Assembly (NCBI RefSeq): GCF_028532485.1
Contig: NZ_CP116942.1
Location: forward strand, 806,001-870,000
Direction: 5' to 3'
DNA length: 64,000 nt
From: Iamia majanohamensis
GTDB lineage: Bacteria; Actinomycetota; Acidimicrobiia; Acidimicrobiales; Iamiaceae
This document shows positions 3,016-59,947 of this stretch, piece after piece; the stretch's first letter is position 1; the number at the start of each line of letters is the position of its first letter. The notes beneath the pieces are model-generated. The model did not search any database. It worked only from the letters and a program-made list of their open reading frames with translations, and was not told where the DNA came from. Made by a program: the position numbers and the translations under genes.

Positions 3016-5508
3016 GTGTCGGCACGCGTCGGACGCCATCGCCTGCTGCTGCTCCTCGGGGCCGCGCTGGCGGTGGCGTTCGCCGCGTCCCGGCCCCCGG
3101 TGGTCGACCTGGCCCACCGCCTGGTCGCCTGGACCGGCGGTGGGGCGGGGGGTGGGTCGGTCCACGCCGAGGTCCTCCCCTCGGCCGCGGCCCCGACCGG
3201 CAGCGCCATCGGCACCGACGTCTCGCTGTCGTGGTCGCCCGTGGTGATGGTGTCGGGCGCCCAGGTCGACGGCTACGAGGTGCGGCGCTACGACCTCGAC
3301 GGCACCCTCCACGCCACCCTGGACGGCTGCGACGGCCTGGTCACCGGCACCATGTGCACCGAGCTCGGGGTGCCGGTCGGGTCGTGGCGCTACGCCCTCG
3401 TGACCCGCAGCGGCTCCTGGACGGCCGTCGAGAGCCCGCGGAGCACGACCATCGCCGTGGGCGGGGCCTCCCTCGGCTTCACCTCGTCGACGACCATCAC
3501 CGCGCTGCCCGCCACCCTCCAGGGGGCCGTGTCCGGCTTCCGCGCCTCCGAGGGCCTCACCTTCCACCTCGACGCCGAGGACGGTCCGGTGCTCGCCGGC
3601 ACGCCGAGCGCGGTGGGGCCGGACGGCACCGCGACCGTGTCGGTCACGCTCCCCGCGGGCACCGACGACTCGCCCCACGCCGTCGTCGCGGTGGGCGACG
3701 GCGGGACCGTCGCCCGCGCCGCCGTCTCGATCGTCGACCCCCCGTCGCTCGTCGCGCTCGAGGCCTTCGACGTCGATCGCGACGGGCGCGTCGACCGGGT
3801 GGCCGCGACCTTCGACGAGCCCCTCGCGGCCTACACGGCGGGCACGGCGCCGTGGGCGCTGAGCGCGGCCCCGTCCGGGGCCACGCTCGCCTCCGTGTCG
3901 GTCAGCGGTGCGGTCGCCACCCTGGAGCTCACCGAGGGCACCGGCGCGGCCACCACGGCCCTCGGGTCGTTCAAGGTCGCCCTCGGCGTCAGCGGGACGG
4001 GGGTCCGCGACGCCAACGGCCACCGGTCGTCGTTCCCCGCCACGGCCCCCGTCGACCGGGCCGCCCCCGCCCTCCTCTCGGCGACGATGTCCGAGGCGGT
4101 CGTCAACGGCCGGGTCGACCGCATCACCCTGACCTTCTCCGAGACCCTCGCGGCGGCCTCCTCGGGCACGGCCCCGCTGACCCTCGCCTCCGTCCCGTCG
4201 GGCGGCACGGCCGCGAGCCTGACGACCTCGGGGACGACGGCGACGATCGGCATCACCGAGGGACCCGGGGCCCCGGACACCGCGGTCGGCGACCTCACCG
4301 TGGCCCTGGCGCCGAGCGCGACGGGGATCCGCGACGCCGCCGGCAACCCGTCCTCCTTCGCGGCGCGGGCCCCGGCCGACGCCGCCGCCCCCGTCGCCGT
4401 CTCCCGCCTCGGCTACGACGTGGACGCCAACGGCCGCTTCGACCGCGTGGTCGTGGCCTTCTCCGAGGCGCTCGCGCCCTACGGGGCGGGGACCGCCGGG
4501 TGGGGCCTCTCCTCGGCCCCGTCCGGCGCCACCCTCGGCTCGGTGAGCGCGTCCGGCACCACCGCCACCCTGGCCCTCACCGAGGGGACCGGGACCCGCA
4601 CCACCGCGGTGGGGTCGTTCCGCCTGTCGCTCACCAAGCAGGCCGACGGGATCCGGGACGCCGCCGGCAACCAGACCAGCTTCGCGTCGTCGTCCGCCAC
4701 CGCGGTCGCCGACCGGGCCGGACCGGTGCCGAACGTGGTGAGCCTGCTCGACGGCACCACGAGCGGCAACGGGAACGGCAAGGTCGACCGGGTCACGGTC
4801 ACCTGGACCGAGACCATCTCGACCACCTACGCGGCCGGCACCGCCCTCTGGACCCTGACCGACGTGCCGTCGGGCGGCACGCTGGCCTCGGTCGGCCTGA
4901 CCACCTCGACGGTGACGCTCACGCTCACCGAGGGGACCGGTGCGGCCGACACCGCCGTGGGGGCCATGCGGGTCGCCATGGGGGCCAGCGCCAGCGGTGT
5001 GCGCGACGGCTCCGGGAACCCGGCCCCCGCCTTCGCCCCGGTCGCGCCCCGGGACCAGGCCCGGGCCGTGCCCCTGGACGTGACCGACACGAACGGCGCC
5101 ACCGACGGGCGCGTCGAGCCGGGCGACACCCTGTCGCTCCGGTTCTCCGAGCCCCTCGCGGCGGCCTCGGTGCCGTCGACCTCGACGGTCACCCTGGCCG
5201 ACCCCACCGGCACCGGGAACGACACCCTGAGCATCGCCGGCATCACCAACGGGGCCCGCTCGACGGGGTCGAACGCCTACGTCACCACCGACGCGACCTC
5301 GGCGTCGTGGCCGGCGACGGTGGCCCTCAGCGCCGACCGCACCACGATCACGGTGACGGTCGGGTCCACCTGCACCGGCACCGGCTGCGCCGGGCTGGGC
5401 ACGGCCACCTCGGCTGCCAGCTTCTCCTACCTCGGGGCCACGACGCTCGACGACGGCACCATCGCCGTCACGACCGGCGCCCGGACCTTCTCCCGTCGCC
5501 TCTTCTGA
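3016..5508 (+). CDS. Large surface or secreted protein with five SwmB/Ig-like repeats
   Basis: 830 residues starting with GTG 4 nt after the preceding stop. A hydrophobic N-terminal segment (residues about 7-25) acts as signal or anchor. A fibronectin-like region follows, then five related units beginning near residues 247, 352, 457, 571 and 685. Each unit opens with a DxDxxGxxDR-like motif followed by FSExL (for example DVDRDGRVDRVAATFDEPL) and later carries LTEGTG and GxRDxxGN. The acidic opening loops resemble calcium-binding loops. Such repeats are typical of adhesins and cell-surface proteins. There is no LPXTG or C-terminal anchor. Confidence 0.82.
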   Translation: MSARVGRHRLLLLLGAALAVAFAASRPPVVDLAHRLVAWTGGGAGGGSVHAEVLPSAAAPTGSAIGTDVSLSWSPVVMVSGAQVDGYEVRRYDLDGTLHATLDGCDGLVTGTMCTELGVPVGSWRYALVTRSGSWTAVESPRSTTIAVGGASLGFTSSTTITALPATLQGAVSGFRASEGLTFHLDAEDGPVLAGTPSAVGPDGTATVSVTLPAGTDDSPHAVVAVGDGGTVARAAVSIVDPPSLVALEAFDVDRDGRVDRVAATFDEPLAAYTAGTAPWALSAAPSGATLASVSVSGAVATLELTEGTGAATTALGSFKVALGVSGTGVRDANGHRSSFPATAPVDRAAPALLSATMSEAVVNGRVDRITLTFSETLAAASSGTAPLTLASVPSGGTAASLTTSGTTATIGITEGPGAPDTAVGDLTVALAPSATGIRDAAGNPSSFAARAPADAAAPVAVSRLGYDVDANGRFDRVVVAFSEALAPYGAGTAGWGLSSAPSGATLGSVSASGTTATLALTEGTGTRTTAVGSFRLSLTKQADGIRDAAGNQTSFASSSATAVADRAGPVPNVVSLLDGTTSGNGNGKVDRVTVTWTETISTTYAAGTALWTLTDVPSGGTLASVGLTTSTVTLTLTEGTGAADTAVGAMRVAMGASASGVRDGSGNPAPAFAPVAPRDQARAVPLDVTDTNGATDGRVEPGDTLSLRFSEPLAAASVPSTSTVTLADPTGTGNDTLSIAGITNGARSTGSNAYVTTDATSASWPATVALSADRTTITVTVGSTCTGTGCAGLGTATSAASFSYLGATTLDDGTIAVTTGARTFSRRLF

Positions 5509-5521
5509 GCGCCGCCGATGT

Positions 5522-5548
5522 CCTCGGCGCCGTCGCGAGGCGACGAGG
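5522..5548. terminator. Hairpin between convergent genes
   Basis: GTCGC (5532-5536) pairs with GCGAC (5540-5544) around a GAG loop, extended by CCTC/GAGG with an internal bulge. It lies between the stop of the repeat protein and the stop of the hemerythrin gene. There is no U-tract, so function as a bidirectional terminator is inferred from position. Confidence 0.4.
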
Positions 5549-5584
5549 TGCGCCCCGGCGCCGCCGGCCCCGACTGGGCCAGGC

Positions 5585-6277
5585 TCAGGACCCGGCCTGC
5601 GCCGGCACCGGGATGCTGCCGAACGCCCGTGCCTCGAGACGGGCGTGGCGGCCGCGGGTGGCCCGGTAGAGCACCTTCAGCGGCAGGGGCGCCTCGGCCA
5701 GCATCCGGGCCCGCTCCTCGTCGGTCACCACGGCCACGGCGAACGGCACCGTGAAGGCGGCCTGGGCACCGAGGCCGACGGCAGCGATCGCCGCCCGGTC
5801 CAGCTCGGCGTACTCGTCGGCGGAGAAGTGGCGCTCGAAGAGGGGGAGGATCTCGTCGTCCTCGAAGGAGAGGTGGGCGTCCATCAGGTCCCCGAGGGCG
5901 TCGAGGTCGTCGATGAGGCTGAACGAGCGCAGGTCGCTGCCGTGCAGGAGCCGGGTCATCCCCTCGCCCACCGAGGTCATGAGGGCGTCGAGGCGGTGGT
6001 GCTCGTCGTCGGTCCGGGCGAGGAGGCCGGCCGCCTCCGGGCACCGGCCCACGAGGGCGGGGAGGAAGACGTCGTCCTCCACGGTGTGGTGGGTCAGCAC
6101 CTCGCCAGCGTAGCCCTTCCAGTAGCGGGCCAGGGCGGTGCTGCGGCGACGGTCCTCCGGGGTCGTGAGCCGCACCGACGCGGCCAGCCGGTGCGGGGCC
6201 CGGCGGAGGGCCGCGTGGATGTTGCGGTAGCCGGTGAGGTCCGGGGTGTCGGCGGGGGTGGTGGTCGTGGTGCTCAT
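5585..6277 (-). CDS. Hemerythrin HHE-domain protein
   Basis: 230 residues. Metal-ligand motifs of the hemerythrin/HHE fold are visible: H21, HHTVEDD (63-69), DDEHHRLD (90-97), then a second half with HLSFEDDEILPLFERHF. Such domains bind a di-iron centre and sense or carry O2, NO or iron. The gene is monocistronic and divergent from the next gene across about 300 bp (6278-6573), in which I see no further gene and no clear regulatory element. Confidence 0.9.
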   Translation of the reverse strand: MSTTTTTPADTPDLTGYRNIHAALRRAPHRLAASVRLTTPEDRRRSTALARYWKGYAGEVLTHHTVEDDVFLPALVGRCPEAAGLLARTDDEHHRLDALMTSVGEGMTRLLHGSDLRSFSLIDDLDALGDLMDAHLSFEDDEILPLFERHFSADEYAELDRAAIAAVGLGAQAAFTVPFAVAVVTDEERARMLAEAPLPLKVLYRATRGRHARLEARAFGSIPVPAQAGS

Positions 6278-6573
6278 GTGTCCTCCTCGTGGGGACCGGC
6301 GGCTGCCGGGGGTGTGGAGGCATCATCGGGCCGGGCGGTTGCGGGCCACGTGGAGACGACGTGGACACCGAGCAGGAGGGCTCCGTCCCTGGTCAGCGGG
6401 GCGCGGCGTTGGTCGTGAGCGATGGTCCGCGCCCGGTCGTCCGGTGCTCGCCGGTCCCGCCCAGGTCCCGGCCGTCGGTGCCTTCCCGCAGCGGGGTCGC
6501 GGTGCCATGCTCACCGCGTGGGGCAGCGGGGGATGGAGCCGGTGCGGGACGAGGGGTCGGCAGGGCCGCGCTG

Positions 6574-7203
6574 ATGGACTGGGTGCGCTGGCACGGGGCC
6601 TACGACGACCCCGCCTCGCCGCTCTCGCAGCGCCTGGAGGTGGTGCGCCGCCGTGTGGAGGAGGCGCTCGACCTGGTCGACGCCGATCGGCCGTCCGTCC
6701 TCAGCCTGTGCGCCGGCGACGGGCGCGACCTGCTCCCCGTCCTCGCCCGCCGACCCGCCCGGGCACGAGGCCCGGTGGTGGTCGTCGAGCAGGACCCCAC
6801 CCTGGCCGAGGCGGCGAGGCTGACCGCCGGCGACGCCGGCCTCCACGAGGTGGAGGTCCGCCAGGGCGACGCCGCATCACCGGCGGCGTGGGCCGATGCG
6901 CTGCCGGTGGACGTCCTGCTCCTCTGCGGGATCTTCGGCAACATCACCGCGGAGGAGGTCGACGGGCTCGTCGCCCTCGCCCCCGCCCTGCTCCGGCGCG
7001 GTGGCTGCGTGGTGTGGACCAGGGGGCGCACCGAGCCGGACCTGCGTCCTCGGGTGCGTGCCGCCTTCACCCATGCCGGGTTCGACGAGCTCGCCTACGA
7101 CGGGGACCCTGCGCAGTACGGCGTCGGTCTGGCCCGGCTCGTCGTGGCGCCGCCGGATCCCCGCCCACCCCTCCCCGAGCGGCTGTTCGCCTTCCTCCGC
7201 TGA
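6574..7203 (+). CDS. Class I SAM-dependent methyltransferase
   Basis: About 209 residues from the ATG at 6574, chosen because upstream in-frame sequence is low-complexity Gly/Arg/Pro and unlike protein. Motif I for SAM binding is LSLCAGDGRDLLP (residues 43-55). An acidic residue at the end of the second strand (VVVVEQDP) would bind the SAM ribose. LLLCGIFGNI is the motif IV region. Substrate unknown. No strong ribosome site is visible. Confidence 0.8.
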   Translation: MDWVRWHGAYDDPASPLSQRLEVVRRRVEEALDLVDADRPSVLSLCAGDGRDLLPVLARRPARARGPVVVVEQDPTLAEAARLTAGDAGLHEVEVRQGDAASPAAWADALPVDVLLLCGIFGNITAEEVDGLVALAPALLRRGGCVVWTRGRTEPDLRPRVRAAFTHAGFDELAYDGDPAQYGVGLARLVVAPPDPRPPLPERLFAFLR

Positions 7204-7248
7204 CCGTGAGGACCTGGGCCGGAGCCCGTCGGGCTGTCCACCGCTCGC

Positions 7249-7255
7249 TGTCACA
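7249..7255 (+). promoter_or_regulatory. TGTCACA motif upstream of the DUF4262 gene
   Basis: TGTCACACCCCC 28 nt upstream of the ATG. The same sequence, in nearly the same position, occurs upstream of sbcD (9377). TGTCACA is the reported -35 element of ECF41-type sigma factors, and a SnoaL-tailed ECF gene lies between the two sites. A Shine-Dalgarno GGAGG (7261-7265) lies between the motif and the start here, which argues against a simple -35 role at this spacing. Confidence 0.35.
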
Positions 7256-7276
7256 CCCCCGGAGGATGATCGGGAC

Positions 7277-7804
7277 ATGTGCGAGATGTGCGACGGCAAG
7301 AGCTTCCAGCAGGTCCTCGACGACACCCGGGACCACGTGCGCCGCTTCGGGTGGGCGGTGCGGGGCGTCCAGGCCGAGGAGGGGAGACCGGGCTGGGTGT
7401 GCACGGTCGGCCTGCTCGACAGCTACGAGCACCCGGAGCTGGTGGTGTTCGACGACGACTGGTTCCGGGGGGCCTCGCTGCTGAACGCCCTCGGGCGGGC
7501 GGTGCGCGACGGGGAGGAGCTGGTGCCCGGCGACCACCTGTGCCTCGGCGAGGGGGCGGCGGCCCACGTGGTCGACGTCCACCCCGACCACCTGGGCACC
7601 GAGGTCTTCGCCATGTGGCACAACGTCCGGCGGGTCGGCACCGTGACCCCGCCCGACGAGCTCCTCGCCCACCAGGTCGTCCTCCTCCACCCCGAGGCCG
7701 GCCAGCAGGGCCCCGACGGCATCCGCCTCGACCGCCCGGCGGCGCCTGCGCCGGCGACCCCTCCGCCGCCGCCCTGGGAGTGGCCCCGCCTGCGCGCCGG
7801 CTGA
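7277..7804 (+). CDS. DUF4262 domain protein
   Basis: 175 residues. The N-terminus has a CEMC motif (residues 2-5), then the DUF4262 core: GWVCTVGLLDSYEHPELVV and FGWAVRGV, with later HLGTEVFAMWHNV and HQVVLLHPE. The function of this family, common in actinomycetes, is unknown. The C-terminus is Pro-rich (PAPATPPPPPWEWPR). Ribosome site GGAGG at 7261-7265. Stands alone between a methyltransferase and a STAS-like gene. Confidence 0.85.
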   Translation: MCEMCDGKSFQQVLDDTRDHVRRFGWAVRGVQAEEGRPGWVCTVGLLDSYEHPELVVFDDDWFRGASLLNALGRAVRDGEELVPGDHLCLGEGAAAHVVDVHPDHLGTEVFAMWHNVRRVGTVTPPDELLAHQVVLLHPEAGQQGPDGIRLDRPAAPAPATPPPPPWEWPRLRAG

Positions 7805-7831: not shown

Positions 7832-8176
7832 GTGAGTCCCGCCCCGCCCCTCCGTCTGCCCTCCATGGAGGCGTCCCGACCCGAGGGCCAGAGCGCGCCG
7901 GGGTGGACCTCGGTCGAGCTCCGCCTGGCCGACGGCACGCGCGTCGAGGTCGGGCGCGTGCCGGTGGCCTCGCGGGTCGACCTCGGCACCGTGGAGGGGC
8001 TGGCCCGGCTCCAGGTGGGTGCCCGTCGCCGCGGCTGGCGGGTCAGCCTCCACCACGACGACCGGGGGTGCCCTCTCGCCCGACTGCTCGACCTGGTCGG
8101 GCTCACCGCCGAGGTGGAGGACGTGGTGGCCGAGGCCGAGGCCCTCCTCTGCGGGCGAGGCGGGCCGACTGCGTAG
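7832..8176 (+). CDS. Small STAS-like protein
   Basis: 114 residues from GTG at 7832 with a purine-rich ribosome site (GAGGGGGG) upstream; an ATG at 7865 is an alternative start. The segment DLGTVEGLARLQVGARRRGW followed by LLDLVGL resembles the second half of actinobacterial STAS domains (anti-anti-sigma or MlaB type), where an acidic residue then a helix follow the central strand. The first half is short, so the domain may be divergent. Ligand or partner unknown; it sits next to a sigma factor gene. Confidence 0.6.
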   Translation: MSPAPPLRLPSMEASRPEGQSAPGWTSVELRLADGTRVEVGRVPVASRVDLGTVEGLARLQVGARRRGWRVSLHHDDRGCPLARLLDLVGLTAEVEDVVAEAEALLCGRGGPTA

Positions 8177-8252
8177 GCGCGTCGGTCTGCGGTCGCCCGA
8201 GGTGCGGGGTCGGTGACCGGGGGCGGGGCCCGCCGTCGCCACCGGGGGACGC

Positions 8253-9266
8253 TCAGGCGGGCAGGGGGTCGCCGTCGGGGGTGAGGGCCGGGGGCAGCCC
8301 GAACTCGGCGAAGAGGTCTTCGTAGATGAAGTGGTTGAGGGCCGTGATCTTCCCGTCGCGGGACTCCACCACCTGGATCGACCAGGGTCGCAGGGTGCCG
8401 TCGTCGGCGGGCTTGTAGGAGGCCACGCCGGGCACGCCGTTGGCGGTGATGGGCAGGACCCGCGAGCCCTCGCAGCCCGCGCCCTTGCCCAGGTGCCACC
8501 GCCCGATCTCGTCGGGGCCTCGGAGCCACAGCTCCCAGGGGGGCATGGACATCACCGCGTCCTCGTGGAGGAGCTCGACCAGGGCGGAGATGTCGTAGCG
8601 CTCGAAGGCGTCGACGTAGCGGGCGAGGAGGTCGGCGTGGGCCTCGTCGACCGGGGCGGGGTCGACGCCGGTGGGGGGCAGCGCCTCGAGGGTGGCCCGG
8701 GCCCGCTGGAGGGCGCTGTTGACCGACGCCACCGAGGTGTCGAGGAGCTCGGCCACCTCGGAGGCCTGCCAGCGCAGCACCTCGCGGAGGATCAGCACCG
8801 AACGCTGCTTGGGCGGCAGGTGCTGGAGGGCAGTGACGAAGGCGAGGCGGATCGACTCCCGGGCCGCGGCCACGTCGCCGGGGTCGCCGTCGTCGGGCAC
8901 GACCCGCTCGTCGGCGACGGGGCGGACCCACATCTTCTCGCCGCGGGTGGGGCCGATGTCGCCGTCGGCCGAGCCCGGCGGGCCCAGCTCCATGGGCCGG
9001 GCGCGCCGCTGCACGCTGCGCACCATGTCGAGGCAGACGTTGTGGGCGATCCGGTACAGCCAGGACCGCAGCGACGACCGGCCCTCGAAGGAGTCGATCT
9101 TCCGCCAGGCCCGGATGAAGGTCTCCTGGACGGCGTCCTCGGCCTCCGAGCCGGAGCCGAGCATGCGGTAGCAGTAGCCGGTGAGCTCGCGGCGGTGGGC
9201 CTCCAGGGCGGCCTCGAGGTCCTCGGGCGCGGGGCGCCCCTCGGTGGGGGTTCCGGTGATGGCCAA
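8253..9266 (-). CDS. ECF RNA polymerase sigma factor with SnoaL-like C-terminal domain (SigG/SigJ type)
   Basis: Region 2 is at the N-terminus (LTGYCYRMLGS, AEDAVQETFIRAWRKID), region 4 follows (LPPKQRSVLILREVL, EVAELLDTSVASVNSALQRA), then a ~110-residue SnoaL-like domain (DAFERYDISALVELLHEDAV, HFIYEDLF). The attached domain replaces an anti-sigma factor as regulator in this group. The start is uncertain: TTG at 9264-9266 gives about 337 residues and the expected N-terminus; the frame stays open to 9446 but would then overlap the sbcD promoter. Confidence 0.88.
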   Translation of the reverse strand: MAITGTPTEGRPAPEDLEAALEAHRRELTGYCYRMLGSGSEAEDAVQETFIRAWRKIDSFEGRSSLRSWLYRIAHNVCLDMVRSVQRRARPMELGPPGSADGDIGPTRGEKMWVRPVADERVVPDDGDPGDVAAARESIRLAFVTALQHLPPKQRSVLILREVLRWQASEVAELLDTSVASVNSALQRARATLEALPPTGVDPAPVDEAHADLLARYVDAFERYDISALVELLHEDAVMSMPPWELWLRGPDEIGRWHLGKGAGCEGSRVLPITANGVPGVASYKPADDGTLRPWSIQVVESRDGKITALNHFIYEDLFAEFGLPPALTPDGDPLPA

Positions 9267-9376
9267 GGACGACGAGTGTACGGCGCCGGGCCGGGCCGGT
9301 CGACGGGTGGGCCCCCGCCCGATCCCCCTCTCCGCGGTCGGCGCGCCACGCAACGGGAGGGGGGCATCCACCGGGC

Positions 9377-9399
9377 TGTCACACCCCCTCCGTAACGTC
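9377..9399 (+). promoter_or_regulatory. Candidate ECF-type promoter of sbcDC
   Basis: TGTCACA (9377-9383) then C-rich spacer and CGTC (9396-9399), 7 nt before the sbcD ATG. TGTCACA and CGTC are the two conserved elements reported for ECF41-type promoters, but the 12-nt spacing seen here is shorter than usual. It lies in the divergent region shared with the ECF gene. Confidence 0.35.
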
Positions 9400-9405
9400 G
9401 CGGCC

Positions 9406-28948: not shown

Positions 28949-29013
28949 ATGACGACCGGCCAGGGCAGGTGCTCGCCTTCCGCAGGCTGGCGGCATAACC
29001 GTTGACCAGGCAC

Positions 29014-29030
29014 TTGGCACCGGCTGCCAA
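29014..29030. promoter_or_regulatory. Inverted repeat TTGGCA-N5-TGCCAA before the integrase
   Basis: Perfect 6-bp arms separated by CCGGC, 44-60 bp upstream of the integrase ATG and about 70 bp inside the attachment junction. It could be an operator, an integrase arm site or a hairpin. Confidence 0.45.
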
Positions 29031-29073
29031 CTCTCAAGAGGTCGTCGAGGTTACTGACGGGAACCTTGACGGG

Positions 29074-29949
29074 ATGCACTCCACGCTCACCCCGCACATC
29101 AACACCCACCTCACCGGGCGACTACGCCGCGGTGAGATCGCCCCCGTCACCGCACGGGACCTCCGGTACACGCTGTCGTCGCTCGACCGGTCATTCGGGC
29201 GACGGCCGCTGAACCAGCTCGGCCCCAAGGCGATCGACCGGTGGCTCGAGTCCATCGGCCACCTGGCCCCCGCCACCCGCCGCGAGTACCTGTCGAGGGT
29301 GCGGGTGTTCTGTGCGTGGCTGCTCGCAGAAGGGCTCATCCGCAAGAACCCGACCGCCCACGTCCCTGCCATCCGCCAGCCTCGACGCCGGCCGATCACG
29401 CTCACCGAGGTCGAGGTGGCCCGGCTGCTGCTCGCCGCACCTGACCTGCGGGCCAGGGCTGTCGTGTGGTTGATGGTCGGGTGCGGGGCCCGGTGTGTGG
29501 AGGTGTCCCGGGCGACAGTGGAGGACTACGAACCGCGGCACGGGACGTTGCTGCTCCGAGGGAAGGGCGGTCACGAGCGGATGATCCCCGTCCCGACCGC
29601 CGCACGCGACTGCCTCGACCGGTACCTCGACACCACGGGCAGGGCGTCCGGGCCGCTGATCCGGTCCGAGGTGAACCCGCAAGCCCTCCTCTCCCCAGCC
29701 ACCTTGTCTCAGTACATGCGGAAGTGGATGCGAGCCGCCGGGGTGAAGACCCGGGCGCTCGACGGGCGCTCCGCCCACGGCCTCCGCCGGACGGCGTTGT
29801 CGGACGTGATGGACCGCACCTCGGACGTGCGGGTCGTGCAGGAGATGGCGGGGCATCGGGACCTGGACACGACCGCCCGCCACTACCTCCGGCCGGTGAC
29901 GTTGGATCAGCTGCGGACGGCGATGGAGGGAAGGGACTACGCGGCGTGA
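29074..29949 (+). CDS. Phage integrase, tyrosine recombinase
   Basis: 291 residues from the ATG at 29074 (in-frame TTG at 29002 is an alternative). N-terminal SAM-like core-binding domain (residues about 1-95), then the catalytic domain with R140, K164, H235-x-x-R238, H261 and nucleophile Y271 (HRDLDTTARHYLRP). All catalytic residues are present. It directs integration into dtd. The stop overlaps the next ATG (TGATG). Confidence 0.95.
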   Translation: MHSTLTPHINTHLTGRLRRGEIAPVTARDLRYTLSSLDRSFGRRPLNQLGPKAIDRWLESIGHLAPATRREYLSRVRVFCAWLLAEGLIRKNPTAHVPAIRQPRRRPITLTEVEVARLLLAAPDLRARAVVWLMVGCGARCVEVSRATVEDYEPRHGTLLLRGKGGHERMIPVPTAARDCLDRYLDTTGRASGPLIRSEVNPQALLSPATLSQYMRKWMRAAGVKTRALDGRSAHGLRRTALSDVMDRTSDVRVVQEMAGHRDLDTTARHYLRPVTLDQLRTAMEGRDYAA

Positions 29950-47502: not shown

Positions 47503-48177
47503 TCAGGCAGACAGCCAGGACAGGTGCGGTCGGAGCAGGGTGGGGGTCTCCCGGCCCTCCTCCTCGCCTTCCTGGTCGTCGTCTCCGGGGTTGGAGATCA
47601 GTGCCGCCAGCTCGCCGCGCTCAGCGACCTCGACCACGGAACGGAGATCCATCTCGTGTTCGGCGGCGAGGGAGCGCAGGGCAAGGCTGGCGGTGGAGTC
47701 GTCGTAGTAGGGCTGGACGGTGAGGTCGATGACGAACAGCCGGGCCTCGGACACTGACCGGAGGGCCATGCCGTCGTCGTCGACGGACCACTGCTCAGCC
47801 TTGGGGAGGGCTCGGAACCCGATCGAGGAGCCCTTGATGTCGCCTCGCTCGAGGAGGTGGGCGGTGTCGCGGCCGGCGGCGGTGTCGGGCAGGTCGATCT
47901 CGTAGGCGAGCTCGGACCGTGAGTCGAAGGTGCGGACGGTGCCGGCACCGGTGCGGCCGAGGTAGGGGCCGCCGTGCTCGTTGTGGGCGAGGATGTCCTG
48001 CTCCTGGAGCGTCTTGGTGAACGCCCCGGAGCGGAACTCCTCACGGAACTGGCCGCCGATCGGCTTGGACTTGGCGCCGTACCGCATGGCGATGCCGGAG
48101 GCGGTGATGCGGCCGTGGTCGCCGGACCGGAACTCGACCGGCTCGACAAGGTGGCGCTGCTCGTAGGTGGCGGTCAC
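47503..48177 (-). CDS. Prohead protease, HK97 family (S78)
   Basis: 224 residues from GTG at 48177, overlapping the portal stop (GTGA). Family motif ILAHNEHGG with H65/H68 and KGSSIGFRALP with the catalytic Ser 116-117. It cleaves the capsid delta domain during maturation. The acidic C-terminus (DDDQEGEEEGRE) may bind inside the prohead. Confidence 0.93.
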   Translation of the reverse strand: MTATYEQRHLVEPVEFRSGDHGRITASGIAMRYGAKSKPIGGQFREEFRSGAFTKTLQEQDILAHNEHGGPYLGRTGAGTVRTFDSRSELAYEIDLPDTAAGRDTAHLLERGDIKGSSIGFRALPKAEQWSVDDDGMALRSVSEARLFVIDLTVQPYYDDSTASLALRSLAAEHEMDLRSVVEVAERGELAALISNPGDDDQEGEEEGRETPTLLRPHLSWLSA

Positions 48178-49409
48178 TGGGCACCTCCGGGAGGCGGCTG
48201 GTTGGCGGCACCCTGGGCGCCGGCGGGGACGTTGACGTACTGGTCGCCGTTGGGGACGGGCGGCATGTCCTCGAGGGAGCGGGCGTCGTTGGCCGACAGG
48301 AACCCGCTGTTGATGCCGACGGCGTAGGAGTCGTAGCGGTCCTTCAGCGACGCCCGGAGGAGGGCGTCGAGGTTCAGCTTGATGAACACGTCGGTGAGGC
48401 CGTGGGTGGACAGGAGCCGGGTGTGGGCGGTCTCGATGCGCTCCAACCACGGCCGAAGGCTGAACTGCCCGAAGGCGAGGTTCTGCTCGGCAAGGCCCGA
48501 CCCCCACGAGGTCGAGTTGGAAGCGTCGGCGATCAGGTGCGGGGGGACGCCGAAGATGCGGGCGATGTCGGGCACCTGGAACTGGCGGGTCTCGAGGTAC
48601 TGGGCGTCGTCGGGGTTGATGCTGAACGGGACCGGCTCCGCCCCGCCGAGGAGGACCCCGACCTTGCCGGCGTTCTTCGGGCCCCGGTGGGTGGCGTTCC
48701 ACGTCTCGGCGATCTTCTGGGCCCGCTCCTTGGCCGACGACCCGAGGCCACCGTCGGGGCCCGGGGGGACCTTGATGGCCATGGACGGGGTGGCGCCGTT
48801 CTCCATCATCGCCCGCCCGTAGTCCTGGGCGGCGAGGCCGATGCCGATGGTCTCCCGGGCGTACCCGATCGGCGACATGCCCTCCAGCTCACCGGGGAGG
48901 GTCATGCCCTTGATGTGCATCAGGTCCCGGTCCGTGACCTCCTGATCGAAGACCCGGTAGGTGACCCGGCCCCGCTTGCGTTCGACCGTCACGGACTCGG
49001 GGTTGAGGACGAACAGGTCGACCGGAACACCCATGCGGTCACGGGGGGTGAGGACGTAGGCGTTGCCGTCGGTGAGCAGCGAAAGGAGGAGCTGCGACAG
49101 GTAGTCGACCCGAGAGGACTGCGGGGGCTCGAAGCCGAGGTAGTCGGGGCGGGGCCGGTACGGGCGGCGGGTGCCGCCGTTGCGGACGTAGGTGTCGAGG
49201 GGGAGGGTGGAGATCGCTTCGGAGATCAGCCGCAGGCAGGCGAACACGGCGGAGAGACGCATGGCTCGGTCGTTGGTGACAACCGACGACGTCGCCGGGT
49301 TCCAGACCATGCCGCCGCCCCACCAGCCGGCGCCGGGCTGGCCGTACCCGTCGGGGATGTCGGGCACGGACCGCTGCTCGATGCCTAGGGCGTTGCGGAG
49401 GAGGCTCAC
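48174..49409 (-). CDS. Portal protein, HK97 family
   Basis: 411 residues from GTG at 49409. Motifs: AVFACLRLISEAISTLPLD, LSLLTDGNAYVL, HIKGMTLPGELEGMSPIGYA and ARIFGVPPHLIAD, which are typical of HK97-type portals. It forms the dodecameric vertex ring through which DNA is packaged. Confidence 0.96.
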   Translation of the reverse strand: MSLLRNALGIEQRSVPDIPDGYGQPGAGWWGGGMVWNPATSSVVTNDRAMRLSAVFACLRLISEAISTLPLDTYVRNGGTRRPYRPRPDYLGFEPPQSSRVDYLSQLLLSLLTDGNAYVLTPRDRMGVPVDLFVLNPESVTVERKRGRVTYRVFDQEVTDRDLMHIKGMTLPGELEGMSPIGYARETIGIGLAAQDYGRAMMENGATPSMAIKVPPGPDGGLGSSAKERAQKIAETWNATHRGPKNAGKVGVLLGGAEPVPFSINPDDAQYLETRQFQVPDIARIFGVPPHLIADASNSTSWGSGLAEQNLAFGQFSLRPWLERIETAHTRLLSTHGLTDVFIKLNLDALLRASLKDRYDSYAVGINSGFLSANDARSLEDMPPVPNGDQYVNVPAGAQGAANQPPPGGAQ

Positions 49410-49540
49410 AGGCGGGCCTCATCGAGCCCTGCGGCCAGGGTGAGGAGCCCTGCGGCGAGCAGGGCGCCGGAGAACCCGCCGATGATGAAGGCGGCTGCGA
49501 CGACGGCGAAGGCTCCGAGGATGACCAGAACAGCGGGCAT
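49406..49540 (-). CDS. 44-residue membrane protein between terminase and portal
   Basis: ATG at 49540 with GGAGGA 6 nt upstream; the stop overlaps the portal GTG (GTGA). Almost entirely hydrophobic: AVLVILGAFAVVAAAFIIGG then GALLAAGLLTLAAG. Likely two helices or one long hairpin. The good start and coupling argue that it is real. Function unknown. Confidence 0.7.
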   Translation of the reverse strand: MPAVLVILGAFAVVAAAFIIGGFSGALLAAGLLTLAAGLDEARL

Positions 49541-49550
49541 GGGGTCCTCC

Positions 49551-50321
49551 TCAGACGTCCACTACGACGAAGTCCCAGTCGTCGACCGGGTCTTCGATCT
49601 CCAGGTGACCCCAGCGTGCCAGGGTGGCGGTGGCGAGCGGGGTGACGTCGGTGTCGCGCCGGTCCCACATCCACACGTCGCCACGGGTGCGCTTCTTCGC
49701 CCTAGCCACGCACCCGGTGAGCGTGTCGTCGTCGAAGTGGTGGACGGTGTCCTCGGCGACGGCGTCGTAGAACCCGGCGCACGCCTTCGCGTACTCCGCT
49801 GCGGTGACCCGGGTGATGGTCACCCCTGCGGCTTCGATGTCTCGGACCAGCGACCCGACCGGGCCTTCCGGGTCGATCAGGACCGCCTTCGTCGTTGGCT
49901 TCCCAGCCAGCTCGACCACCCGGTCGAGCAGCCACGTCCTGCCCTCGCGGTGCTCTCCGACCTCTACTGCGACCCCGTCGGGGTGGGTCATGGCGGCGGA
50001 GATCGCCGCCCACCCACCGTCGGGTGTGGCCTCCACGGCGTAGGTCACCGTCCCCGACAGGGCCACCGGGTCCCGGGCTGCGTTTCGCCACTGCTCTTCG
50101 GTGATGACCTCCCACCGGGGGGCGTCGTCGTTGTCGGGGAACATGCCGAGCCGCTCCCGGGCGTACTCGTCGTCGTCCATCGCCGCCCGCTCGATGCGGG
50201 AGAACTCCTCGGTGATGCGCCCGGCCGCCATGGCCGGGTTAGCGGCCCACAGCGCGGCCGGATCATCAAGGTCCGAACCCTCGGGTGCAGACCACTCCCA
50301 GTAGGCCAACTTGTCGGTCAT
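49551..50321 (-). CDS. Terminase large subunit, nuclease half (separate gene)
   Basis: 256 residues. Starts at LAYWEWSAPEGSDLDD, the usual linker of actinophage TerL proteins, and contains the RNase H-like nuclease: VTYAVEATPDGGWAAI, VLIDPEGPVGSLV, and DTDVTPLATATLARW. The first catalytic acid appears as Glu in AVEATPD. The ATG overlaps the stop of the ATPase half (ATGA). Normally both domains are one protein of ~500 residues. Confidence 0.88.
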   Translation of the reverse strand: MTDKLAYWEWSAPEGSDLDDPAALWAANPAMAAGRITEEFSRIERAAMDDDEYARERLGMFPDNDDAPRWEVITEEQWRNAARDPVALSGTVTYAVEATPDGGWAAISAAMTHPDGVAVEVGEHREGRTWLLDRVVELAGKPTTKAVLIDPEGPVGSLVRDIEAAGVTITRVTAAEYAKACAGFYDAVAEDTVHHFDDDTLTGCVARAKKRTRGDVWMWDRRDTDVTPLATATLARWGHLEIEDPVDDWDFVVVDV

Positions 50322-51010
50322 GCGGTCTCCGCCAGTGCCCGGCCACGGCGGATCAGAGATCGGAGACGATCGGACTCCGGTCGAGGCAGCGGAGCGGACG
50401 ACGCAAGGATGAGCTGCGGGTTCGGGCGGGCCGACATCGACGGCACCAGCGACCCCAGCTCCAACAGCCAGAACGCCTCGTTCAGCACCACCACGTCACC
50501 CGAGAACCCACGACCGGAGCCCTTGCCCCTGGCCTTGAAGTTCTGACGGGTGCCATCCCTTAGCTCGATCGACTCGGCCCCGTTCGAGTCCTTGATCCCC
50601 GACGGACCGCCGACACCGCGACCGTTGTCCTTCACCTCGGCCAGCAGGTCCGGGCACCCTTCGATGACATCCCGCATCCGGCGGAAGTGGTCGAGGCAGG
50701 TGTCGAACCGGTGCGCCGTGTGGGTGAGCAGCCTGCACCCCTTGTCCAGGTACAGGCCGAACAGCTCCCGCACCAGGAGGATCTCATCCTTCCCGTTCTG
50801 TCGCGTGCAGATGATGCCGGCCTCGGTGGCCGCCCACTTCCCGTGCTCGTCCTCCGCCAGCAGGCCCTCAACTACGTCCTGCTGCCAGTCGTCGAGGAAC
50901 ACCCCGGCCGCCTCACCCAAGTCGAGGGCGTCTCGCCCCGCCGACGAGAAGAACGGCGGCAGGTACTTGTACCTAGGCGGTGCGCTCTGCGCGACGTCGA
51001 GCAAGCTCAT
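50318..51010 (-). CDS. Terminase large subunit, ATPase half (separate gene)
   Basis: 230 residues. Walker A variant CTRQNGKDE (K74); Walker B VVVLNEAF, with Asn where Asp is usual; motif III region LILASSAPLP. It ends at LIRRGRALAET, where a one-piece TerL would continue into the nuclease. It powers DNA packaging. The start overlaps terS by 38 bp. Confidence 0.88.
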   Translation of the reverse strand: MSLLDVAQSAPPRYKYLPPFFSSAGRDALDLGEAAGVFLDDWQQDVVEGLLAEDEHGKWAATEAGIICTRQNGKDEILLVRELFGLYLDKGCRLLTHTAHRFDTCLDHFRRMRDVIEGCPDLLAEVKDNGRGVGGPSGIKDSNGAESIELRDGTRQNFKARGKGSGRGFSGDVVVLNEAFWLLELGSLVPSMSARPNPQLILASSAPLPRPESDRLRSLIRRGRALAETA

Positions 51011-51320
51011 CCAGCACCGACCCCTTCTCCTCCGCCCCCCCGACCGGGATGTTCAGCGCCTTCACGACCTGCCGCAGCTCGGCCACCGTCTGGCGGGCCT
51101 CGGCCACGGCGGAGTCGATCTTGATCTCGTAGTCCTTGGTGCGCACGTTGTGGACCAGACGGCACCACACATCGGCCTCGCCCGAGATCAGGGCATCGAA
51201 CCGGTCCAGCCGGTCGACCAGGCGGACCGCTTCGTCCAACAGGACTCGCTCCCCCGGCCCCATCCCAGGCTTCGCCTTCTCGACCTCCGCCCGAAACGAC
51301 TCGCCCCTGCTCACGGCCAC
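50973..51320 (-). CDS. Terminase small subunit
   Basis: 115 residues, mostly helical (VLLDEAVRLVDRLDRFDALI; DSAVAEARQTVAELRQVVKA), resembling the actinophage/P27-like TerS. It binds the packaging site and presents DNA to TerL. Position between HNH and TerL supports this. Confidence 0.82.
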   Translation of the reverse strand: MAVSRGESFRAEVEKAKPGMGPGERVLLDEAVRLVDRLDRFDALISGEADVWCRLVHNVRTKDYEIKIDSAVAEARQTVAELRQVVKALNIPVGGAEEKGSVLDELARRRAERTA

Positions 51321-51419
51321 TGTCGGTCACCTGCCGGCATTCTCCGAGAGAGATATCCGTTGCAGAGAGGCGGGTCAGCAGCCGGGCGGTTGGGAACTCT
51401 GGAGGCCCCCCTCCCCTTC
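51321..51419. other. Gap between HNH and terS, possible cos region
   Basis: 99 bp without a gene. Contains an inverted TCTCCGAGAGA. In cos phages with an adjacent HNH protein, the cohesive-end site often lies near terS. No sequence feature proves it here. Confidence 0.25.
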
Positions 51420-52145
51420 TCAGCCGATGAGCCGGAGTTGTTCGCCTTGCGGCATGGTGCTGTCACCCTTGAGGGTGTTGCACCGGAAGTGAGCGCACTG
51501 GACGTTGGCGAGTGTGTGGTGGCCGCCCTGGGCCAAGGGGACCACGTGGTCGAGTGTCGGTGCATCGGGGTGAGGCACCTCCGCTGTTGGTTGGGTCCGA
51601 CCGCCACATAGTCCGCATGTCCAGTTGTCTCGCTTGAACACGTCGTGGGGGTCGATGGGCTCGCATGGGGCGCTACGTTGTCGCGCTCTGCGTAGAGCCT
51701 TGGCTGTGCGCTTGGCACGCTTGGCCGGCGCTGCCTGTCGGGCGCAGGCGTTGGAGCAGTAGCGGCGGGGCCTTCCTGTGCCGCTGTAGTGGAAGCCCCG
51801 TCCGCACTGCCCGCACGTCAGGGTCGAGGGCGTTGGCCGGCCAGTGAGCAGAAGTTGGCGACACTGGTAGGCGTGCTGGGTTCGGCCATGGCGTGCTACG
51901 AACCAGGTCCGGCAGGCGAGGCACGAGGCCCACGGGATGACGGTGGGTGGTGGTGGCGTGGTGCAGGTGCGGGAGCAGAGCCGCTGGTTTCGCTTGGTAC
52001 GGGTGAAGGTCTCACCGCACCGCTTGCACACGGCCTGGCCTCGAGGGCGGCGCCATTGGCAGAGGTTGGAGCAGTAGAGCCTGGGGTGGCCTGGCTTTCG
52101 GGGTGGCAACGGGCCAGAGCAGGTGCGGCAGATACGCTCGGCCAT
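51420..52145 (-). CDS. HNH endonuclease with several zinc fingers
   Basis: 241 residues from the ATG at 52145 (AGAGGA upstream; an ATG at 52208 is possible). CxxC pairs (CRTC, CSNLC, CKRC, CSRTC, CLAC, CGQC, CSNAC) make at least three zinc modules. The C-terminal HNH domain has CGLCGGRTQ, TLDHVVPLAQGGHH and HFRCNTLKG. In HK97-type phages, an HNH protein next to terminase is needed for cos cleavage. Confidence 0.88.
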   Translation of the reverse strand: MAERICRTCSGPLPPRKPGHPRLYCSNLCQWRRPRGQAVCKRCGETFTRTKRNQRLCSRTCTTPPPPTVIPWASCLACRTWFVARHGRTQHAYQCRQLLLTGRPTPSTLTCGQCGRGFHYSGTGRPRRYCSNACARQAAPAKRAKRTAKALRRARQRSAPCEPIDPHDVFKRDNWTCGLCGGRTQPTAEVPHPDAPTLDHVVPLAQGGHHTLANVQCAHFRCNTLKGDSTMPQGEQLRLIG

Positions 52146-52229
52146 GTCGATCCTCTCACCAGGGTTGACCAGAGCCCGGGCCGTTACAGCGGCGCCGGGC
52201 TCACTCATTCTCTCAGGTGGGTGTGACAG

Positions 52230-52568
52230 TCACCATGCGTTGGTCAGGACTCGGTGTCGGTCTCCGGCTCGGCGTGCGAGCTCGTGGCGGATGGCTGCTC
52301 TCAGTTCGGGGGTGATCGGCTTGACGCCTCGGATGCCGTTGCACAGCCGGTGGGCGTGGGCCACGTTGCATCGGTCTAGGGCCGAGCCGCCAGCGGTACG
52401 GGGCACCAGTTCGTCGATCACGGATCCCATGGGGTGACGCTGCCTGTCGAGGCTTAGGTCGATGGGGTTGCCGCAGAGGTGGCAGGTCGGTTCCTCTGCC
52501 CGCACCTGGGCGCAGAGGCGCCGGCGTGGCTGGACGTTGAGCTGGGGGTCCCGCTCTCCACCAGGCAT
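52230..52568 (-). CDS. Second HNH-type endonuclease
   Basis: 112 residues. CHLCGNPIDL, then VIDELVPRTAGGSALD (Asp-Glu in place of the usual Asp-His, as in some phage members) and AHAHRLCNGIRG. No extra domains. It could replace the first HNH in packaging or act as a homing-type nuclease. Confidence 0.8.
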   Translation of the reverse strand: MPGGERDPQLNVQPRRRLCAQVRAEEPTCHLCGNPIDLSLDRQRHPMGSVIDELVPRTAGGSALDRCNVAHAHRLCNGIRGVKPITPELRAAIRHELARRAGDRHRVLTNAW

Positions 52569-58457: not shown

Positions 58458-59519
58458 TCACGAGACAGCCCCAAGGTCCAACGGCATCTGCGCCGCAGCA
58501 TCGGTACGGGCCCTGGCCTTCGCTGCACCACCGGAGTGGAAGATGCGCCAGCGGGCGAGGCGGCAGTAGTCGGCGGACAGGTCGGCGGAGATGCCGCGTC
58601 GGTCGTGTGCTCGGGCGACCATGGCGGTGGTGCCGGTGCCACCGAACGGGTCGAGGACGACGCCGCCGGGTGGGGACCAGCCGAGGATGATGCGCCGGGG
58701 GAACTCGGTGGGGAACGCGGCGAAGTGGTCGACGCCGAGGTGGTCGGGGACCCGGAGCGGTTCGGTGGCCACGTCCCACACGGAGCGGGGGGCGGCGCCC
58801 TTGGGGTGCTCAGCTGGAACGGGGTCGCGGTCGGCCCGGTGCTGGGCCGGTCCGGCGGGTGACTCCGGTCGGGGGCAGGTGGCCCGGGCGAAGGTCCGTG
58901 CAGACGCCGACTGACCGGGGACGACATCGGTGCGCAGCGGGTCGAGGTCGGCGTAGTACGACCCCTCCCGGGTGAAGTGGAACCACTGCTCGTGCGAGCG
59001 GCGCACCCGGTCTCGAACCGACTCGGGCATCCCGTTCGGCTTCGACCACACCACCTCGGCCCGCAGCACCCACCCCTTGCCGTCGGGGTCGGCGTGGCCG
59101 TCGATGCAGCCGAGGGCGTACCGCCACGGCAGCCCCATGAGCGACTTGGACCGGATGCCGGTGTTTGCCGGTGCCATCTTCGACCAATAGTCGGCGGCCC
59201 CGTAGCGGGGCTGGCCGTCCTTCAGGCCGCCAGCGTTGTAGTCGCCGCCCGGGCCACCAGCACCGCTGTACTTGTCGCCCAGGTTCACCCACAGCGAGCC
59301 GGTCGGCTTCAGCACCCGCCAGCACTCAGCGGTCACCTTCCACAGCGCCTCGAGGAAGTCCCGCCAGTGCGGCTCTCCACCCACCTGGCCGTCGTAGTGC
59401 TGACCGCCGTCCTGGTAGGAGCGGAGGGCGAAGTACGGGGGGCTGGTGACGATGAGGTCGACCGATGCGTCCGGCAGTGGGAGCCGTCCGGCGTCAGAGC
59501 GGAGGACGAGGGCGGTCAT
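58458..59519 (-). CDS. DNA methyltransferase, beta-class (N4-C or N6-A)
   Basis: 353 residues. Catalytic TSPPYF (S26-Y29) precedes the SAM motif DPFGGTGTT near the C-terminus, the beta-class order. ILGWSPPGGVVLDPFGG and SADYCRLARWRI are typical. There is no restriction enzyme beside it, so it is an orphan, probably protecting phage DNA. It overlaps the nuclease gene by 4 nt. Confidence 0.93.
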   Translation of the reverse strand: MTALVLRSDAGRLPLPDASVDLIVTSPPYFALRSYQDGGQHYDGQVGGEPHWRDFLEALWKVTAECWRVLKPTGSLWVNLGDKYSGAGGPGGDYNAGGLKDGQPRYGAADYWSKMAPANTGIRSKSLMGLPWRYALGCIDGHADPDGKGWVLRAEVVWSKPNGMPESVRDRVRRSHEQWFHFTREGSYYADLDPLRTDVVPGQSASARTFARATCPRPESPAGPAQHRADRDPVPAEHPKGAAPRSVWDVATEPLRVPDHLGVDHFAAFPTEFPRRIILGWSPPGGVVLDPFGGTGTTAMVARAHDRRGISADLSADYCRLARWRIFHSGGAAKARARTDAAAQMPLDLGAVS

Positions 59520-59947
59520 GGTGTGGCCCCCTGTTCGGCCGGCGCCGGCAGATCTGCCAGCGCGTCCGCGACAGGGACAAGCAGACCACTGGCGCCGTAG
59601 CGTCCAGAGACGGCCACCCAGCGGGAGCCGGGCCACGCCTCCGACGTGAGGCACGGCCACTGGCCCACGTCGGTCTCGCGGGGCTTGCGCCAGATCACCA
59701 CCCACGGGCGACCCTCCGCCTCCGCCTCGGCCTGTCGCGCCCACGACGGCCACGACGTACCGGAGGTGTGCGACTTCACCTCGACCACCAGGCCGGGGAC
59801 ACCGTCGATGTCTCCGAGCTGCGACTGCCGGCCGGAGCCGCGCTCCCGGTTCCGGGTGGTCTCGGCGTGCGGGTAGCCGTTGGCGCGGAGCCATCGGGCG
59901 ACCATGCGCTCGGTCTCACGCCAGCGCGTCGTCGACGGTGCGCTCAT
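59516..59947 (-). CDS. PDDEXK-type nuclease, possible resolvase
   Basis: 143 residues from the ATG at 59947 (ATGA overlap). Core GDIDGVPGLVVEVKSH with Asp, Glu-x-Lys as in PDDEXK enzymes; preceded by RGSGRQSQLGDI. Might resolve Holliday junctions or trim DNA during phage replication. Confidence 0.75.
   Translation of the reverse strand: MSAPSTTRWRETERMVARWLRANGYPHAETTRNRERGSGRQSQLGDIDGVPGLVVEVKSHTSGTSWPSWARQAEAEAEGRPWVVIWRKPRETDVGQWPCLTSEAWPGSRWVAVSGRYGASGLLVPVADALADLPAPAEQGATP

Follow-up and report, generated by a model that had tools for sequence, protein, structure and literature searches.

Two overlapping reading frames occupy the place of the large terminase (TerL) gene in a prophage of Iamia majanohamensis, raising the question of whether they represent a broken gene, an error in the sequence, or a packaging motor that is made as two proteins. 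The window analysed here comprises 64,000 nucleotides of contig NZ_CP116942.1 (positions 806,001 to 870,000; G+C content 72.6%). An earlier note, made from the sequence alone, had described a large terminase split into separate ATPase and nuclease genes at 49551-51010; the split and its range are borne out, as both open reading frames match the large terminase family PHROG 9. The relevant features, in window coordinates, are as follows.

50973-51320, minus strand: terminase small subunit, directly upstream of ORF1 (PHROG 1496, E 3.3e-24)
50318-51010, minus strand: ORF1, 230 aa, TerL ATPase core of the ASCE fold (PHROG 9, AlphaFold2, HK97 TerL match)
50786-50803, minus strand: Walker A motif RQNGKD, with Asp75 directly after the Lys (sequence, alignment column)
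50474-50494, minus strand: Walker B motif VVVLNEA, with Asn177 (Asp in most relatives) and Glu178 kept (sequence, alignment)
50393-50401, minus strand: motif III or C-motif, SSA, 24 aa before the end of ORF1 (sequence)
50327-50330, minus strand: GGAG, Shine-Dalgarno-like, 5 nt before the ORF2 ATG (sequence)
50318-50321, minus strand: ATGA, the ORF2 start codon overlapping the ORF1 stop codon (sequence)
49551-50321, minus strand: ORF2, 256 aa, predicted ATPase lid, linker and RNase H-like nuclease (PHROG 9, AlphaFold2, HK97 TerL match)
50118-50321, minus strand: predicted lid part of ORF2, approximately residues 1-68, starting MTDK-LAYWEW (HK97 TerL, PHROG 9 order, D6E numbering)
50031-50033, minus strand: first nuclease acid, Glu97 of ORF2 (alignment)
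49872-49874, minus strand: second nuclease acid, Asp150 of ORF2 (alignment)
49647-49649, minus strand: third nuclease acid, Asp225 of ORF2 (alignment)
48174-49409, minus strand: portal protein, directly downstream of ORF2 (PF04860, TIGR01537)

ORF1 matches positions 65-364 of the 812-position PHROG 9 profile (E 6.7e-29) and ORF2 matches positions 386-671 (E 6.4e-27), consecutive stretches of a single profile. No Pfam or NCBIfam family matched in either frame, and the PF03237 (Terminase_6N) profile found no match in the genome. The pair lies between the small terminase and portal genes, the gene order of a large terminase, and ORF1 carries the Walker A motif, the Walker B Glu and motif III of an ASCE ATPase core; passages of PMC9410871 apply the name motif III or C-motif to TerL. 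With the core, lid and nuclease distributed over two frames instead of one polypeptide, we file the locus as a two-chain variant of TerL and not as a canonical one-chain TerL. The surrounding prophage encodes an integrase, tail genes, a head-tail adaptor, and an HK97-type capsid and portal; for portal, capsid and tape measure, the frames are intact and each matches its family. The tyrosine integrase gene at 29002-29949 (plus strand) probably lies close to the left prophage end. Candidate attachment repeats near it amounted to unconvincing matches of 14-16 bases, and the prophage ends were not found. Two HNH endonuclease genes (51420-52208 and 52230-52568, minus strand) lie just upstream of the small terminase gene, an open reading frame that by eye resembles an HNH gene precedes the small terminase in the related viral locus L002, and an N6_N4 DNA methylase gene is present in the prophage region at 58458-59894 (minus strand).

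The position of the break relative to the domains of TerL was queried using AlphaFold2 models of the two halves, each run separately with a 68-row alignment (mean pLDDT 92.1 for ORF1 and 93.7 for ORF2). The top-ranked solved structure for both was HK97 TerL (PDB 6Z6D), a single polypeptide in which core, lid and RNase H-like nuclease follow one another in the same order as in the window. ORF1 residues 22-228 correspond to HK97 TerL residues 1-207 (Z 18.7, 188 aligned, rmsd 2.6), and ORF2 residues 1-239 to residues 206-483 (Z 16.5, 233 aligned, rmsd 8.3); the latter rmsd probably reflects a different placement of lid and nuclease relative to each other. By these models, the break falls between the ATPase core and the ATPase lid, at approximately residue 207 of HK97 TerL, and ORF1 would therefore constitute the ATPase core alone, with the lid, linker and nuclease in ORF2. 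In D6E numbering, ORF1 ends at residue 190-191 and the nuclease part of ORF2 starts at 234-235; passages of PMC5727402 describe the D6E terminase as a lid followed by a linker at 230-241. A phmmer alignment of the one-piece relative L092 with HK97 TerL, itself weak (E 0.011), agrees with a core-lid break. HK97 TerL residues F239, placed in the adenine pocket, and R240 and R270, placed in proposed core-lid contacts in passages of PMC9410871, are all located after the break position. The PhiV-1 terminase (8dgc) aligns with ORF2 from residue 25, HK97 TerL from residue 1, and the remaining terminase structures, D6E, Sf6 and T4 included, only from residue 62-72 on; the predicted assignment of the lid to ORF2, and its absence from ORF1, thus draws on few structures, namely the HK97 alignment together with the PHROG 9 order and D6E numbering. 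The nuclease fold of ORF2 matches the Sf6, D6E, T4 and G20c nucleases (Z 14-15), with Glu97, Asp150 and Asp225 as the predicted acids of an RNase H-like nuclease. The natural domain linker at which the earlier note had placed the break is thereby replaced by a joint one boundary earlier.

We searched for the split in related viral contigs. An IMG/VR scan with ORF1 yielded 176 confirmed loci, and 80 were kept; three of these (L002, L003 and L004) carry the split, 76 have a one-piece gene, and L047 is truncated where its contig ends. The scan with ORF2 alone confirmed no relative, while alignment-based scans did find relatives, and further IMG/VR scans added the split loci L093, L219, L337 and L298. 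The check for the same split in related phages, as the earlier note had suggested, thus returned 7 split loci among 290 fetched related loci with both halves (283 one-piece, window not counted), a proportion that is not an unbiased rate, as the loci had been collected for their similarity to the window or for the RQNGKD pattern and many are near-copies. Four more fetched loci contain the ATPase half only. Every other core-lid split known here is on an IMG/VR contig.

The junctions are alike in position and, with one exception, in kind. Six of the seven split loci possess a stop-start overlap, GTGA in L002, L003, L219 and L337 and ATGA in L004 and L093. L002 and L003 are near-identical, and together with L004 they are the nearest relatives of the window, with 65% identity in the core and 37-40% in ORF2; the ORF2 proteins of the window, L002 and L004 share only 35-43% mutual identity, and the junction is shared. 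The exception is L298, in which two open genes (5679-6251 and 6338-6883, matching phrog_4652 and phrog_5926, function unknown) come after the core gene (4916-5587); next are the lid-nuclease gene (6952-7719) and an open reading frame in the place of the portal gene (7950-9404), and no Rfam family matched at this locus up to E 1. In the window, L002, L004, L093, L337, L298 and L219, ORF1 ends 17-27 aa past motif III and ORF2 starts 2-13 aa before the motif [LF]AY[WF]EW (the ATPase half of L219 is itself cut by the contig end). The corresponding distance between these two marks in one-piece proteins has a median of 23 aa (15-41; n=50 with both marks found). A sequencing or assembly error at the junction would have to explain separate contigs with the same kind of stop-start overlap and the two genes between the halves in L298, in a genome that is a single contig of 4.58 Mb and 99.4% complete. 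A one-base error would not recur at one place, nor would it insert genes; we regard this explanation as extremely improbable.

Coupled bacterial genes are known to use stop-start overlap with restart, which would be the simplest mechanism by which both halves are translated. The reading of the junction in the earlier note is confirmed in its details: the TGA of ORF1 is shared with the ATG of ORF2 as a four-base ATGA, the frame change is -1, and the overlap looks like stop-start coupling. Before ORF2, the window has GGAG five bases ahead of the ATG, L002 and L003 have only a GGA at ten bases, and L004 and L093 have no Shine-Dalgarno-like motif. An in-frame ATGA or GTGA is already present in 9 of 100 one-piece genes within 75 nt around the joint. 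Alternatively, some ribosomes may shift frame at the junction, so that a fused TerL arises as well and performs the packaging. The second frame is indeed the -1 frame and overlaps the stop. In agreement with the earlier note, no slippery heptamer, the mark of a programmed -1 frameshift, was found: none of the patterns scanned occurs in the last 150 nt of ORF1 in the window, L002, L003, L004 or L093. Frameshifting moreover cannot join the halves of L298, which are separated by two genes. We consider a fused, frameshifted product very unlikely.

To count the origins of the split, a careful tree was computed from 41 rows (39 different) including the window and six split loci, with the junction columns omitted. 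At least three changes between the split and one-piece states are forced by starred branches, with 3-4 in bootstraps, and a single clade of all seven split rows is rejected (p-AU 1.5e-45). The window groups with L002 and L004 (100/99). The split L093 and the one-piece L092 are near this group in an order that the tree does not settle; a smaller tree gave 52/81 for a single split clade among the window, L002, L004 and L093. The second split group consists of L337 and L298 (100/98), beside the one-piece L005 and L252, and the third of L219, a partial row. Three fissions are the simplest reading because one-piece is by far the commoner state, and some of the changes could be fusions rather than fissions. 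The best reading is that of a conserved two-protein TerL variant, cut at the core-lid joint, that has arisen more than once.

In cellular genomes, ORF2 has a single match in its own genome, which is itself, and no match in 23 other genomes of the family. The 68-row core profile has matches in 14 of 397 genomes of the order and 24 of 396 genomes of the phylum, the genome of the window included both times. As read from the open-frame column, no cellular hit with E below 1e-20 other than the window has a half-length frame; eight weaker cellular hits have short frames. Of these eight, L366 and L368 have interrupted TerL frames: at L366, the TerL frame ends near the lid-nuclease boundary and the next open reading frame is without a PHROG match; at L368, the TerL frame breaks inside the nuclease. 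These frames are perhaps decay, or for L366 another split. Three more of the eight carry a different pair, in which a gene matching phrog_27743 comes after an ATPase gene (phrog_7579, PF03237):

L370, 572-2115, minus strand: linker-split pair
L372, 386-2016, minus strand: linker-split pair
L395, 1459-2978, plus strand: linker-split pair

Their junctions read TGATG, ATGA or TAGTG, and one of the three has a weak PF17289 match below the cut-off. The ATPase gene seems, by its sequence, to keep the lid, with the cut at the ATPase-nuclease linker; phrog_27743, listed in PHROGs as of unknown function, is probably a terminase nuclease subunit. L394 carries an ATPase of the same type near the end of its locus, and L393 and L399 contained nothing recognisable with the filter used. 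Like the window, the phrog_7579 and phrog_27743 pairs place a large terminase in two adjacent genes that overlap by stop and start; they differ in belonging to a distant family and in being cut after the lid, as judged from sequence and profile extent, not from structure. Two-gene large terminases are thus not confined to the group of the window, and the core-lid cut is what is particular here.

Other known systems differ from the window in their gene structure. The twelve named phages inspected and Redno2 all possess a one-piece TerL (that of WXIN being taken from a start upstream of the annotated one). One-piece TerL proteins of actinobacterial phages, among them Rhodococcus phage REQ1, Mycobacterium phage Bongo and Propionibacterium phage P1.1, show tblastn similarity to both ORF1 and ORF2. 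The Jug phages, according to passages of PMC12363816, have a terL gene that is interrupted by group I introns and restored by splicing. As in the window, their gene is in two or more pieces; unlike those pieces, the halves in the window overlap by 4 bases, and no Rfam match, intron families included, was found up to E 1 in 49400-51400. Our search of open-licence PMC texts returned no report of a split large terminase or of the Walker residue exchange described below, which is weak evidence of novelty with subscription papers mostly outside its reach.

Compared with HK97 TerL, the Walker B motif of the window has Asn, accompanied by Asp after the Walker A Lys. We examined this exchange in an 88-row alignment (window included) that left out L089, L091, L110, L111, L061, L062 and L117, as well as loci that do not have both halves and identical sequences. 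The Walker A Arg and Lys and the Walker B Glu are kept in 88/88 rows. Walker B Asn is present in five rows, and exactly those five carry Asp after the Walker A Lys. Among 244 aligned ATPases, a set from which proteins without a recognisable Walker A were dropped (5 of 234 in an earlier pass), the two residues occur together in 33; 210 rows have Gly, Asn, Thr or Ser after the Lys together with the Walker B Asp, and one row (L082) is misaligned. In a quick tree of 117 rows computed without both columns, to which GKD rows were added if a D or N was in reach at Walker B (a filter that the 244-row set did not have), the pair changes at least nine times, four of them forced by starred branches. All twelve named phages have the Walker B Asp, and none of the eleven with a readable Walker A has Asp after the Lys (the Walker A of SM1 was not read). 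A DNA scan of IMG/VR for RQNGKD gave 77 stretches and 49 open reading frames of 150 aa or more, with NEA downstream in 31, AEEC or SEEC, of another family, in 4, and neither in 14; one of the latter, L174, has VFDEGD and no TerL context. In L125, L135, L167 and L181, members of the other RQNGKD family, Ala/Ser-Glu-Glu-Cys occupies roughly the expected place of Walker B.

According to passages of a review (PMC7617512), Walker B coordinates magnesium, and it is plausible that moving the acid from Walker B to the P-loop is a compensation. That the two positions move together argues that the ATPase of the window is under selection and not decaying. VVVLNEAF, pointed out in the earlier note, is present; the emphasis on it as unusual gives way to a recurrent paired exchange, and the Asn is not damage. 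We see about even chances that two generalizations hold: i) large terminases have been cut repeatedly at the core-lid joint, most simply three times, so that the nuclease subunit provides, in trans, the lid that moves upon ATP hydrolysis, and ii) separately, Walker B Asp to Asn changes have repeatedly been paired with a new Asp beside the P-loop Lys, a relocated acid at the ATP-magnesium site. By its recurrence, the exchange offers a natural test of the position at which the acid is required.

The first nuclease acid is likewise variable, with Asp in 58 of the 88 rows, Glu in 8 and neither in 22, and it is His in L093; the second and third acids in the window are Asp. Glu97 was correctly read by the earlier note as the first acid, and with Asp in only 58 of 88 rows it is, from the alignment, not remarkable, as opposed to unusual. 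The nuclease activity of the window protein could be weak, judging by its sequence. Nuclease halves diverge faster than cores, a feature that is general across the family. Between L002 and L004, identity is 79% for the core and 43% for ORF2, and five one-piece pairs of like core identity have 49-65%, above L002/L004, with the other split pairs within that range. We make no claim that the split sped up the decay of the nuclease half, as only L002/L004 falls below the one-piece range.

The fast divergence and the varying first acid would suit halves that no longer form one motor, with ORF1 packaging alone and the lid-nuclease protein a free nuclease. Such a nuclease would not be expected to begin just before the lid motif [LF]AY[WF]EW, as ORF2 does in the window and in six distinct split loci, and the lidless core would be without the adenine-pocket and proposed core-lid contact residues described for HK97 TerL in passages of PMC9410871. 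We judge this separation of the halves highly unlikely.

Another scenario is the recent decay of a dead prophage, in which a frameshift has struck a one-piece terL that is no longer used. The prophage resides in a chromosome, its Walker A/B residues and first nuclease acid look odd at first sight, and the broken TerL frame of another genome, L368, provides a precedent. Against decay, the same junction is found in 7 of 290 related loci with at least three changes of state on the tree, it is shared by the window, L002 and L004 despite an ORF2 identity of only 35-43%, the odd residues fit patterns seen across the family, and open frames that match their families are present for portal, capsid and tape measure. 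The recent frameshift that the earlier note had offered as its alternative is countered by the same recurrence in related viral contigs, and we consider decay unlikely. The split is real, and the evidence stands against both sequencing error and recent decay.

Taken together, a model for a two-protein large terminase emerges. Given that both coding frames are open and homologous to TerL, with confident predicted folds, and given where the break lies and that it recurs in related viral contigs, we place at roughly 0.78 the probability that the locus encodes a working large terminase made of a core protein and a lid-linker-nuclease protein by coupled translation, with the coupling, assembly, ATPase activity and packaging inferred. 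Ribosomes finishing ORF1 at the TGA would restart on the overlapping ATG, with the GGAG five bases upstream, and the coupled restart would keep the two subunits in step, helping their equal supply. The two proteins would then assemble on the portal, together forming what is normally a single chain, and ATP-driven DNA packaging, the function that defines TerL, would be theirs. Passages of PMC7617512 and PMC5727402 give models of TerL in which ATP hydrolysis in the core turns the lid and an arginine in Walker A switches to a lid glutamate. With the Walker A Arg in ORF1 and the lid in ORF2, this arginine-lid contact would therefore be between chains, and the core-lid contact that carries the ATP-driven movement would become a contact between two proteins.

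A question central to viral packaging motors, and still open, is by what means ATP hydrolysis in the core sets first the lid and then the DNA in motion. A natural motor of separate core and lid proteins would allow each part to be purified, mixed, titrated and replaced, unlike a one-chain TerL. If such two-protein motors are real, core and lid would need no covalent link, and the nuclease subunit could attach to the motor or detach from it between the cutting and pumping steps.
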